Shown here piece by piece: positions 19,108 to 29,700 of a stretch of DNA of 64,000 nucleotides. Origin of the DNA: Cristatella mucedo (lineage: Eukaryota > Bryozoa > Phylactolaemata > Cristatellidae); assembly GCA_009760855.2 (NCBI GenBank), contig WPIO01000024.1, forward strand, positions 1,313,501-1,377,500. The letters are read 5' to 3'. Numbering within the stretch: the stretch's first letter is position 1; each line of letters begins with the position of its first letter. The translations under genes and the position numbers were made by a program. The notes beneath the pieces are model-generated. The model saw nothing but the letters and a program-made list of their open reading frames with translations, searched no databases and was not told where the DNA came from.

Positions 19108-22100
19108 CTACTTGCGCCATCGCTTCTGTGACACGACCTGCAGCATGATGAGCTTGCGAGCGCCGTGCTTGTCGCCGAGCGCGACCACGGTGCGCCGATC
19201 GTCGCTGAAGCGAACGCTGAACACGTCCATGGCCGCGTTGAAGGCGGCCACGGGCTGCCCGGTGCGCACTCTCCACAGACGAATGAAGCCGTCGCGAGCG
19301 CCCGTCACGGCCAGGCTGTTGTCTGACGACACGTCCGCCGAGCTGGCCTGCTCAAAGGAAGGCGAGCGCGCGTTCAGGCCGGCTGCGAGGTCGCCAGGGT
19401 CGGGCTGCATGCGTGGTGCGAGGTCAGCAGAGGAGCGCCTGCCCGCCGCCGGCGGCTGCAAGAAAATGACGACGACAAGGCGGCTAAGCGTATCGGAAGG
19501 GGACACGCGGACGGGCACCCGGGCGCAGCAAGCACGCTGCGAGTGTTTGCACAGATTTCCTTTACGGTACCAAACTTAGCTGCACATCGCTGAATGAGGG
19601 CGAAAGAGATGCAGAACGCTAACGGGGAGTCGGAGAAGCCCGGATCCTGTGGGGGGGAGGGGGTTCGACTGCTTCATTTCGCGAGAAAACGAACGTGCCT
19701 CGTCTCCGCTGCTGTCAGCAGCCAGCGTTTGCAGCAGCTGCTCGTCAGAGAGATTCCATATCTTGGCAGTGCCATCTGCCGATGCCGAGGCCAAGAACTT
19801 CCTGTCGCGGCTGGCGACAACCTCGTTAACTGCTTTGCTGTGAGCGGCCGGCATTTGTCCCCTTGACGGGCCCCCGACGGATCCGCCCGACAGCTGTCTC
19901 TGCAAGGTTCGAAAGAGAAGGTACGGTGCTGAACGAGCGTGGGCCACATAGAAATACGACGAGGCAGCTTTGGCGATGAAGCCAGCGGAAGGGCGGAAGT
20001 CCCTCACTAATCGCAAAGCAAGGGCAAGCTGAACGACGAAGCATAACGTTGCGACAATCGCCAAGCTCGCGGCTGAGGCTCGAACACGCTAGTTCCACAT
20101 TGTCATCTGACTCGATGTGCAACCAACGATAAGTTGATAAGGCTAGGGGCTCAAAATGAACACGATCTCCACCGATGGCACTTCGCACATGTATCCGCAA
20201 GGCCTGGAGCCGACGACCGCGGTGGTCAGAGACGAGCACTTCTGGACCAAAGAAGAGCCCTGCTGGGCCAAACCAGAACAAGGGGAGCGAAAAAGGCCTT
20301 TGCAAACATACTGTGTCCAACTCTAAACAACCAATTGCAGAGCGATCGCCGAGGCGATCGCTACAGCAGCAGCATTCAATAAGAAACCCTCGAGGTGCCC
20401 TTTCTGGAAGCAGAGACTTTGCCGCCGCCGCTGCTGCTGCCGAGGCTTGCGCACCTGCGCCTTGCCGGCCTTGAGGCTCCAGATGGTCAGCTCTCCGCTT
20501 CTCGTGCCTGTGACGGCCTCTGCGTTGTCCAGCATGACCGTGCAGCGCGGGTCGGCATTCAGAGCAACAATCGGCACGTCGGTCACCGATGGGGGACACT
20601 GGTCGAGGTCGAATATAGCAAAGTTTGCATTGTTGTCGAACGAGTTGGTGAAGCCGACGGCCACGTAGCGATCGTCGGGCGAGACGAACACGCACGATGC
20701 GCTGTCTGCCACACCTGCAACGGCAGCCATCGGATGAGCCACGAAAGCGAGCCACGGACGCGAAAACAAAAGCGCCTGCAAAGACAGCGAATGACGCCCC
20801 AAAGATGTTTTTCCGCAAAAGGCGTCGAAAGCAATCACGGCGAAAAGCGTGTGAAAACTACTGAAGCTCACAGAAGCAGTGGAGGCACAGGGCCGGCATG
20901 GGGATGGGTCGATATGGCAATGTCAAGGTCGAACGAGCTTATGTAATGTACTGCAACAGTGGCAAAAGCGGCTGCGGATTTCCCGGCTCGCCTACAAGTG
21001 GCGCCGCCTACTGACCGACGGCCGCGTCGTAGCTGATCTGCTGCAGCACGCGGTTCGACGGCACGTCGAAGACCGTGACCGTGGTACTGCCACCGAATCG
21101 ATCTGTCTTGGCAATCACCAGCCGGTTACCGTCGTTGGTCTTGCAGCTGGCCGTGCAGAATATGCCGTCGCCGGCAGGAAGCTGGGCACCGGTGGCAAAG
21201 TCCCAGACCTGCAAGGAGGTGAGACTGGTGGCTGTGCAAGCACACACGATGAGAGAGATACAGAGACTGAGAGAGAGAGAGAGAGAGAGAGAGAGAGAGA
21301 GAGAGAGAGAGAGGAGAGAGAGAGAGAGAGAGAGAGAGAGAGAGAGAGAGAGAGAGAGAGAGAGAGAGAGAGAGAGAGAGAGAGAGAGTGAGAGAGAGCT
21401 CGCCGTCCTCATGCATCCAGAGCTTCTGGCAGCTCTCGCAAGCCGCTCTCCGTCTCCCGTCGTCGACTAGTGCAGCTCGCACAAGCAGGGACGGGCAGGT
21501 GCAGGTCGGATGTGCTTGTGCAGTGTAACCCATCGCGCACGAGCACGCACAGCATCTTTCAAGCTGGAGGACTTCGCTAGGATTTCGCCTGCTCCACTGC
21601 CGAGTGGCAGCAGCAGGGCGGCCAGACGTATTCTTCCCGAAAATCAAGGTCACCGTCAAGCCGCCGGTCTGTGGCGGGGACACCGAGCACTTACCGCCAG
21701 CTTGTTCATGCGGACCCTGTTGCCGGCCTGCGCCTCGTTGACGTCGATTGTCGCCAGTTCGGCCGGCGTCTCGCCGGCAAGGTAGCGCTCGCCGCAGCAA
21801 AGCTGCAGCCCTGTCGATCCATAGCTGTCTCCGGCCATCGTGGTAACCATATCACCGTTCTGTAAAGCGTTTCACTCTTTCGAATGAGTAACTGGGGTGA
21901 CATGCTACGTTTCAAAGGGTCACCAAGCGAGCATGGACTTACCCGCCGCGCGCGCCGCCGCCCCCCACAGCCCTAGCATCGGGCCAGCCGACCATCTGAA
22001 AGCTCCAAGATTGCACATGGGCGAGCGGGTATATCAGAGCAGCACAGTAAGGCATACCAGTCGATACTAGATAGCTATCGAGCAGACCGCATTTCCAAAA

Positions 22101-26700: not shown

Positions 26701-29700
26701 GAGTCGCTATCGGGTCGGGGGCGGGCGAGATGGCGCAAGCAGGCGCCAGGCCGGATGGAAGGCTGCAGACAGGTTGCGCTCTCTCTCTTACTGTCTGCTG
26801 TGGCGACCGGAGCATAAGAAGCCGCCTTGCCGCCAAGCCCGGTGAACACCGGCCAGCCGGGCTTGCAACCGAAGGCAGCCCATATGATGGATGACGTCAG
26901 CAGCAGAGCACCCATTATGCCGCCGACGATGGCCCCAACGGGAACGGTCATGACACCTGGGGAAGAGAATAAGGAAGTGGCGACCATGCTGCAGTGTCAC
27001 CTGACCCGACGACAACTCGGGTGGGAGTAAATAGGGGACCAAATGCAATTAATGACTGCAGCCGCTCGGTGAGGGAAGGGGTGCTGCACTCGAGCCCTTA
27101 CCGCTAGTCAACGTTTCGGTTCGCGGTCCGCCGCCAGGCTGACCGACACCGACTCCTACTTCCGAGATTATTCCTCCAGCGCCACCAGGCTCCGACAGCA
27201 CGGGGATGAAGGGCTCACTACAAGGCATTTCGGTGCCGAGGTTGACGAATGGCAGCGCTGGCTGGGCTGCGTGTTCGCGTGGCAAAGTGAAGAGCGACAG
27301 CGAAGCGAAGCGAATGTCGCATTGGGACCAATCGCCAGCGATCGAGCCAGACAGCCAAGGAAACTCCTCCTTCACCAGTGCAGCAGGGCATGCGGCACGT
27401 CGAAGCCCACTTGTGCGACTGCTCCAAAACCGCTTAAGCGCAGCCGGCAGGAACGAGCACGGGGGATTCAGTTTCACTGCCCCCACAGCGAACGACACGC
27501 TACGACTTCCGTGGCACACGGCCAGACCCGACGTAGCAAAACAGCTAGGCAGGCAGGCAGGCAGGCAGGCAGGCAGGCAGGCGCTTACAGCTTCGGACCA
27601 CGAAGGTCGGGCCAAGGCCACGACACGAGACGGAAGTCTTCGTCCTTGCCGATGATGCTGATGGTCTTCTCGTCGCCTGCTTTCACTAGGTCCACCAGGT
27701 TGATGCCGTTGTACTCGACACCTACGAACGCAAAAGTCTGCTGGAGAAAACTGCAGCACGGTTTCAGATTGTGCAAAGTGTCATGCATCGAGATAAAGGA
27801 TGAAGCCACTCGGCAGCAGACTCGACCGTGATGGCCTGCGAATTAACCGCTGCCGTTGCACAGTCGCGGCCATTGCCGGCAGCGGCGGCGCGAGCAAAAA
27901 GGAAAAAGCGGAAGCGCTCAATCGGTGGCCACCGAACGATCATCGTGCTGCCGAAACGATGGGAAATGTGCTGTCAGCGTCGCAACATCGGGCAAAAGAG
28001 AGCGTGACGGCGGTCGTGGCGCAGAGAGGATTCCGCCAGCTTCGCAGCAGCAGCAGCGTCTACGCACCCGAGATGATGCCATAGAAACCCTGCGACGAGT
28101 CGCGATTGCCTCCGGCGTGTATGTACTTCATGCGGAACTTGCTGGCATCTGAGGAGAGGCAGGAAAATGCGAGATGCAGTGAGGGCTGCACAATGCGCAA
28201 GCCATTGCTAAGAGACACTGCGCAGAGTTCGCCGCTCTTGCACGCACTGCAGACAGCATGCCCCGGCGGACGTTGCACTCGCTCGGAGCCAGACGTCGTG
28301 CGTCCGGGCGGCATCGACCGCACTCGCCCGAAGGAAGGAAATTGATTCACATTTCAAGCGCACGCTGCTGTAATGCACGACAGCTGACTGATGCTAGAGA
28401 GCTGCCCTTCGGGGAGGGAGGAGGCGCGCATTGACACGAGTCGACGCGAGCCCACGAGAGCATTTCGAGGCCCGAGGCGAGCAGCACCGACACACTGGCG
28501 GCCATGATGAAGCAATAATTCTCAAGGACAGCACAGGGAAGCTTTGCCTGGGGCTTAGGAACGTTGCTTTTTAGAAGCTCATGCCAGTATTTCTCGTTGC
28601 AGCCCCGTGAGCTACAGCTACGAGCTACAGCTACGTGAGCAATATGGCGACTGTGTATGAGCAGAAGCTGATTGGCAGGCCTAGCACCTGGAAGCTGGAA
28701 ACATCCGGGCAGCTGCGGTGGGTGGACACTCTGGGTGGGTGCTGCCACTGTTAGAGCAGCGACATGCCGCAGGCTGGAGGGATGGAAGGGACGGCGGGGA
28801 GTGGCTACTGACCAGGGAAGCTGACGGTCCTGTTGTAGTTGTCAAGCTTTATCCAGCCCGCGTTGCCATTCCTCAGCAACTGCAGGACGTGGTACTTGTT
28901 GTTTGCCGCGTTGAACTCGGTGATGCGCTCGACAACCTCGCGACCTCCGAGATTGTGTCGCACGGTGAGAAAGCCGTCGGGGCCCTGCGATGACGACATA
29001 AAAAAGCGCATCCAACACGCGCAACGACAGAAGCGGTGACATTCGACAGCGACGTCGGCAACACCGTCACCACGGCCATCAGCAGCAGACGCCGAGAGGT
29101 AAGGCCGCGCCGTCTGCCAAGCGACGGGCAAGGTCTCAGTCAGAGCGACAAGGCCGCACTCACGAGCTGCACGGCAATGTAGTTGCGCCTGTCTTCACTC
29201 TCGACTCTGAGGACGTCCACCGGGCCGCTGCCGCTCACCCACGGCGTCTGGAAACCGACCGAGAGCTGGTCCGTGTCGGTCCGCGTCACTGCCAAAGCAG
29301 GCTGCGTGTACGTGAGGAGGCTGTTGCCGCCGTACTCCTTGTGAAGGAAGCCGTAGTCGTCTGCGAAGGGACAAGCAGCAGCGGCGCCTGCCCAACCCGT
29401 GAGACTCTGGCTGGCCGGCCGGCTGGCTGGCTCACCGGTGGAGCTGGCGGGCAGTGGTCGCTAGCCCAGCACCCGAAGCCCCCAGTAAAACGAGACGTGT
29501 GACGAGCAGCTACAGCTAGCCGCGACGACGACCCAATTAATGGGCACCACCGTAATGAGCCGCCCTCGGGCACTCGCGCACTGCTCGAGCCATCACCGGG
29601 GTTCCGGGGGGGGGGGCGTTCCGAGCACCAGCGGCCGCAGCTTTGACGAGCCTCTCAAGCGCTCGAGCCACTCAGGCGCCTGAGAGCCTCTCAGGCGCCT

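Follow-up and report, generated by a model that had tools for sequence, protein, structure and literature searches.

A neurexin-derived receptor gene of Cristatella mucedo with a predicted WD40 propeller tail

We analysed a stretch of 64,000 nucleotides from a 572-Mb assembly of the bryozoan Cristatella mucedo (G000:C166:1313501-1377500, hereafter the window; positions are counted from its first letter), and also read the 30 kb upstream of it. The minus strand carries a gene that we read as a neurexin-type receptor continuing, in one open frame, into WD40 repeats. Its 5' exon lies outside the window. The full model comprises 45 exons, is open from ATG to stop and encodes 3,657 to 3,672 residues (about 3,660) depending on the splice choice. 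In the first splice variant, all exons after exon 1 are preceded by AG and all donors are GT except two GC. The elements are given below in the order of transcription, with the evidence for each (LNS, laminin G-type domain; TM, transmembrane).

78700-77872 in window-extended numbering (G000:C166:1392200-1391372), minus strand, outside the window: LNS1 exon with ATG and leader
63400-42527, minus strand: six LamG3/concanavalin-type modules in 13 modelled exons (PF13385, BLAST self-similarity)
42322-41099, minus strand: exons of a LamG-like domain (weak Laminin_G_1 match, no stretch passing alone)
40410-39254, minus strand: LNS3-like domain and EGF2 (Laminin_G_2, E 6.4e-8; 65-bit alignment to neurexin-1-alpha chain 553-713)
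38868-37966, minus strand: LNS4-like domain (tail of the 65-bit alignment only; no separate Pfam match)
37408-35722, minus strand: LNS5 and EGF3 (Laminin_G_2, E 2e-19; 86-bit alignment to neurexin-1-alpha chain 839-1120; EGF3 by eye)
34885-33120, minus strand: LNS6-like domain with an additional EGF, ending in exon 33350-33120 (EGF_2; donor AAAG/gtaacc, open frame)
32659-29782, minus strand: second LNS6-like domain and another EGF (Laminin_G_2, E 6.9e-28; EGF, E 1.1e-4)
29360-29164, 28984-28813, 28148-28068 and 27721-27589 or 27721-27632, minus strand: last LNS domain, LNS 7 (Laminin_G_2, E 2.8e-9)
27266-27102 (alternative start 27217), minus strand: stalk exon (open frame and splice sites; score no better than shuffles)
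26956-26792, minus strand: TM helix exon (exon 37), entered in phase 1 (hydropathy 2.14)
26170-26009, minus strand: juxtamembrane and linker exon 38 (exon score 28.7)
24381-24122, minus strand: Gly-rich linker exon 39 with an in-frame ATG at 24364 (33 of 87 residues Gly; exon score 40.1)
23797-23534, minus strand: exon 40, linker end and first WD unit, GC donor (open frame; exon score 39.6)
21859-21695, 21208-21016, 20714-20455, 19899-19699 and 19347-19108 (TAG), minus strand: WD40 exons 41-45 (PF00400, E 7.2e-17)
18200-18205, minus strand: ATTAAA, a candidate poly(A) signal some 900 nt past the stop (sole match of 12 hexamers from the stop to 17500)

The 3' part of the gene was rebuilt exon by exon, with exon ends chosen by eye. 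Between 29360 and 19108, 14 exons splice into a single open frame with no internal stop, which ends with TAG at 19108 and encodes, in order, an LNS domain, a stalk, one TM helix, a Gly-rich linker and WD40 units. This agrees with an earlier note on the same DNA, which had placed LNS 7 to WD40 in one frame over 14 exons with matching junctions. All 14 exon starts follow AG, and the donors are GT in 11 of 13 cases and GC in the other two (23534 and the weak 19699). At exons 44/45 the GC donor 19699 can be replaced by an in-frame GT donor at 19695 joined to 19382. For exon 35, the donor at 27589 is the stronger one (5.1 versus -1.0), but its use requires 27217 as acceptor, which is weaker (-0.3 versus 2.0 at 27266). 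The frame stays open in all four combinations of these alternatives.

Exons were scored by a codon-plus-splice-site score. A first exon model had been dropped for over-prediction (378 exons). The linker exons 38 to 40, which carry the frame from the membrane to the propeller, scored highly (exon 40 being taken in its form ending at 23549), compared, over the same 10 kb, with 9.8 for the best of 60 first-order shuffles and 15.8 for the best candidate on the real opposite strand. Since the codon model was trained in part on the scored exons, these values are support rather than proof. Three more weak candidates in the region (1.5, 3.7 and 2.8) and a candidate exon at 63622-63458 (9.0) were excluded from the model.

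With LNS1 set aside, no stretch of the model is as hydrophobic as the TM helix (19-residue mean 2.14, against 1.42 for the runner-up). The exon encoding this helix contains no stop, and the frame runs on from there into the WD40 exons, ending VVSQKRWRK. Between helix and propeller lies a tether of about 225 residues, rich in Gly, Ala and Ser (28% Gly). It remains low-complexity across introns 38 and 39: the end of exon 38 and the start of exon 39 are both Gly runs, and the motifs YAGS and AGSVH occur in exon 39 as well as in exon 40. No short PDZ-type tail was found at this gene. No neurexin-like last exon was found from 26791 to 12000 among acceptors of at least 4 entered in phase 1, and two candidate last exons with neurexin-type end letters scored below 0. 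The neurexin/syndecan cytoplasmic motif PF01034 gave no match here, with the limit that the control described below, a short-tailed gene of the same genome, also stayed under the cut-off (12.5 versus 25.2 bits).

Only two stretches of the tail pass the PF00400 threshold. The WD40 identity proposed in the earlier note stands, while its count of about seven blades does not: about eight WD-type units were counted by hand, the C-terminal part being typical and the first part divergent. The two halves were compared with 52 bacterial WD40 loci, which had originally been collected with the whole WD40 query: the first 225 residues of the propeller, although divergent, still matched 9 of them at E<=1e-3 (a shuffled copy, 0 of 52), and the second half matched all 52. 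Among the 25 of 39 families listed, no full-propeller family model passed its cut-off, the nearest being NWD2_C (31.9 versus 33 bits). A scan of GTDB genomes with the WD40 part recovered 52 relatives in 74 stretches, all in bacterial-titled records (best E 1e-14), and nothing pointed to a particular donor among bacteria. In IMG/VR, the WD40 part recovered 1 relative in 4 stretches (24% identity), and the part from LNS 7 to the TM helix recovered none among 6 pattern stretches.

At the other end of the gene, the LNS1 exon begins with the ATG and a hydrophobic leader, judged by eye without a predictor, followed by an LNS domain starting LEFNGSEPD. Among solved chains, neurexin-1-alpha is its best match, the alignment beginning at chain residue 1 (whole-sequence E 4.4e-42; 42.9 bits for the LNS1 stretch). 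The exon ends in phase 1, as the exon at 63400 begins. The gap to that next modelled exon is about 14.5 kb, and the best exon candidate inside it scores 9.0. Because this gap holds 5,000 N, among which exons may hide, the join between LNS1 and the LamG3-type modules relies on strand, on agreement of phase and on domains that complement each other. Taken with the two non-canonical donors, the 5,000 N could point to a decaying or mis-assembled locus. We consider this very improbable: all 45 exons are open, domain signatures extend from LNS1 to the stop, and the window, which contains no N, lies in a 5.6-Mb contig.

The six tandem LamG3-type modules stand after LNS1, at the position of EGF1-LNS2 in neurexin. 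Pairwise, they are 22-37% alike over the parts aligned by BLAST, and in the model each is bounded by phase-1 introns. Modules 1 to 4 lie in two pieces, each with two stretches passing PF13385 (E 1.2e-23 and 6.3e-21), and the piece holding modules 5 and 6 has none; BLAST self-similarity at E<=1e-3 connects all six, module 2 weakly.

The middle block that follows is colinear with neurexin-1-alpha: the 65-bit alignment is succeeded by the 86-bit one (printed in part), and a later LNS domain also matches chain 1118-1230 (25 bits). By the domain boundaries of neurexin-1-alpha, these three stretches of the chain would be LNS3-EGF2-LNS4, LNS5-EGF3-LNS6 and LNS6. Of the LNS-EGF-LNS repeats of neurexin, stretches matching the second and third are thus present in colinear order. 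EGF1 and LNS2 were not recognised; the LNS1 exon is Cys-rich at its end, and the N-containing gap follows. Beyond the colinear block, extra EGF-LNS units precede the TM helix. Neither fibrinogen-like nor BPTI domains were found in Pfam scans of the gene pieces. Judged from these alignments, the receptor is neurexin-derived, and the likeness to neurexins proposed in the earlier note is strengthened by the LNS1 match and by the order of the LNS and EGF domains.

The same genome holds another neurexin-type gene. With LNS1 as query, two matches were obtained in the animal's own genome, this gene and C661:1774942-1775478 (33% identity). The LNS1 of the gene on contig C661 is 28-33% identical to that of the WD40-tailed gene, and its best match is also neurexin-1-alpha. 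This second gene was read by tblastn with the domains of the first and by open frames, without being assembled, and its domain names follow their order. Pieces resembling LNS and EGF domains lie on one strand over 88 kb of the 100 kb examined, several of them with weak matches (EGF1, E 0.018; LNS2, 0.44; LNS3, 0.013-0.096; EGF3, 0.44). The region, C661:1774858-1862768, has a guanine-plus-cytosine (GC) content of 41%, and in this GC-poor locus the codon model gave no exon of at least 9. At its end, an open frame encodes a stalk, a TM helix and a short tail, REWYV followed by the stop, with AATAAA 146 nt downstream of the stop; the likely acceptor of the TM exon is also in phase 1. Neurexin tails typically end in EYYV. 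From strand and order, we infer that this tail exon belongs with the LNS1 exon on C661, and the gene looks like a canonical alpha-neurexin of the animal. As a control, it shows that the short-tailed end of a neurexin can be recognised where one exists.

Since the genome also holds this short-tailed gene, the WD40-tailed gene would be an additional, divergent paralogue. In the 572 Mb, no close second copy was found of either of its distinctive parts: a divergent 233-residue query from the WD40 part led to 4 places and the LNS 7 to TM part to 7 places, all of them the gene's own exons. These searches, in which 5 and 8 candidates passed, exclude close copies only, as they picked up neither another WD40 gene nor the C661 gene.

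We put at roughly 70% the probability that a single gene and a single mRNA encode a single-pass receptor some 3,660 residues long, a neurexin paralogue whose short tail has been swapped for a propeller. At the DNA level, the continuous frame, the linker exon scores, the hydropathy of the TM helix and the distribution of poly(A)-type hexamers support the WD40 tail described in the earlier note. Several points weigh against this reading. It draws on genomic DNA of one genome, and two GC donors (23534 and 19699) are needed. The TM exon scores 11.2, above the shuffles and below the real opposite strand (15.8), and neither control is exceeded by exon 44 (9.1) or by the stalk exon, which scores 3.2 when it starts at 27217; these three exons are supported by hydropathy, frame and splice sites instead of score. 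Upstream, the join of LNS1 to the LamG3-type modules spans the whole 14.5-kb gap, the 5,000 N being in the fetched 10-kb stretch that adjoins the window.

The separation of the receptor from the WD40 part into two neighbouring genes on the same strand is the main rival: exon 37 or 38 would be the last of the receptor, and a WD40 gene would begin at exon 39, from its own promoter or with a spliced leader. In exon 39, the in-frame ATG at 24364 lies 17 nt past a strong acceptor (8.5), and the stretch from this ATG to the donor scores 32, an arrangement compatible with an mRNA that is trans-spliced or begins internally; an intron retained after exon 38 would give the receptor a short tail ending PPPLW. 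These features count against a single mRNA. Conversely, an out-of-frame ATG stands 5 nt ahead of the one at 24364, the Gly-rich linker runs on across introns 38 and 39, exon 37 lacks a stop, and no neurexin-like short tail was seen nearby.

The earlier note had named two outcomes that would separate the parts, transcripts ending between exons 37 and 40 and a separate start for the WD40 part. As a sequence check on the former, 12 poly(A)-type hexamers were searched on the minus strand; none lies between 28572 and 22402, an interval spanning the TM to WD40 exons. The next one, AATATA at 22402, lies inside the WD40 part, which counts against a single transcript, and the absence of AT-rich hexamers over 3 kb at 63% GC is mild evidence only, because few are expected there by chance. 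As to a separate start, the search for ATG-initiated exons in introns 38 to 40 gave none above -3.8 feeding exon 39 and none above -4.1 feeding exon 41, and the only good ATG-initiated feeder of exon 40 is exon 39 itself. No separate initiator exon was found in these introns, but a stand-alone WD40 product starting at the ATG of exon 39 is possible. No Rfam family reached the gathering level anywhere in the window, which speaks neither for nor against spliced-leader genes. On balance we regard two genes as unlikely.

The exon 39 acceptor and its ATG would equally serve a gene that yields both the complete receptor and, from an internal promoter or start, a soluble WD40 protein. Neurexins use alternative promoters and 3' ends (PMC2570956). 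Only the ATG and the splice scores were examined on this point, and they give no positive evidence for an internal promoter; we hold this option to be clearly less probable than two genes.

In the single-receptor reading, the protein would consist of a leader, LNS1, six LamG3-type modules, an LNS/EGF block with duplicated EGF-LNS units, the TM helix, the tether and a propeller of about eight units. Given the leader, the EGF and LNS domains and the single TM helix, the ectodomain would face outside and the propeller the cytosol. The LNS and EGF modules would bind partners on a neighbouring cell or in the matrix, as those of neurexins do, and the propeller, on its flexible tether, would directly bind cytosolic partners and hold them at the contact. 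Neurexins organise synapses largely via short tails that recruit scaffolds. Here the propeller alone would do the job that is otherwise done via PDZ and band-4.1 scaffolds, and a docking-platform role is a reasonable one to propose for it. The suggestion of the earlier note that such a platform acts instead of PDZ scaffolds fits the WD40-tailed gene, but does not extend to the animal as a whole, which also has the neurexin-type gene with the short REWYV tail. We see an even chance that, in some invertebrate lineage, a neurexin branch swapped its PDZ tail for a WD40 propeller on a Gly-rich tether, thereby carrying its own docking hub beside a conventional neurexin. A paralogue with a fused propeller next to a conventional-looking neurexin would be a natural experiment on what the tail must recruit, and would test whether one polypeptide can combine adhesion and cytosolic docking. 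If confirmed by RNA data, it would be an unusual new receptor design.

Other features of the window and of the genome were also recorded. The GC content of the WD40-tailed gene is mostly 57-59%, and 49% at 42-48 kb. Dinucleotide runs (CT/AG, TA) of at least 25 units, several of them within introns of this gene, lie at 3819-3908, 16455-16530, 21314-21387, 22263-22358, 45092-45171, 60431-60575, 61776-61859 and 63047-63116. A convergent gene occupies 12318-17042 of the plus strand. Its 967-codon stop-to-stop frame (12318-15221) contains a 66-bp unit repeated about 21 times (13266-14632), and all its Pfam matches were sub-threshold. If an exon reaching 17042 is included, it gains a coiled-coil part and ends SRTCVLL-stop, resembling a prenylation box. 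A full mitochondrial COX1 is found on contig C688, with TGA as Trp, AGR read as Ser and AAA fitting Lys at the SGK site, which suggests the invertebrate code and not the one used by flatworms or echinoderms. Partial COX1-like stretches at G000:C166:4375626-4376390 and on C83, C549 and C299 are possibly nuclear copies of mitochondrial DNA.

Surface receptors with cytoplasmic WD40 tails seem to be rare in print, no related paper being apparent by title or abstract. In the full-text literature, with most subscription papers outside its scope, no protein joining neurexin or LamG domains to WD40 was reported by title or by the start of the abstract, and the available part of one paper (PMC10236652) names neurexin and WD40 in separate contexts only.

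Compared with known systems, the gene is closest to alpha-neurexin (NRXN1 alpha; 3qcw, 3r05), with which it shares the leader, LNS1, colinear homology over the stretches taken as LNS3-EGF2-LNS4 and LNS5-EGF3-LNS6, and a single TM helix. Unlike in alpha-neurexin, LNS1 is followed by six LamG3-type modules, further EGF-LNS units precede the TM helix, and WD40 repeats stand in place of the short PDZ-binding tail. The C661 gene likewise combines LNS1 with further LNS and EGF pieces on one strand, and differs in stopping soon after the TM helix. For honeybee neurexin I, a PDZ-binding end and alternative 3' ends are described (PMC2570956). The Caspr/neurexin IV family and itx-1, nlr-1 and bam-2 of C. 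elegans resemble our gene in having a LamG and EGF ectodomain and one TM helix. The N-terminal discoidin domain of Caspr/neurexin IV was absent here from Pfam scans of seven pieces including LNS1 and of two tail pieces. The C. elegans members of the neurexin superfamily have short cytoplasmic tails (PMC12414531). Drosophila axotactin appears as a LamG/EGF relative in a figure legend on this superfamily (PMC12414531); that legend mentions a BPTI domain for it, unlike in our gene, and does not mention WD40. Finally, WDR5, the bacterial 2ymu and the C-terminal propeller of NWD2 share WD40 repeats with the tail described here, whereas in this gene the repeats come after a TM receptor part.

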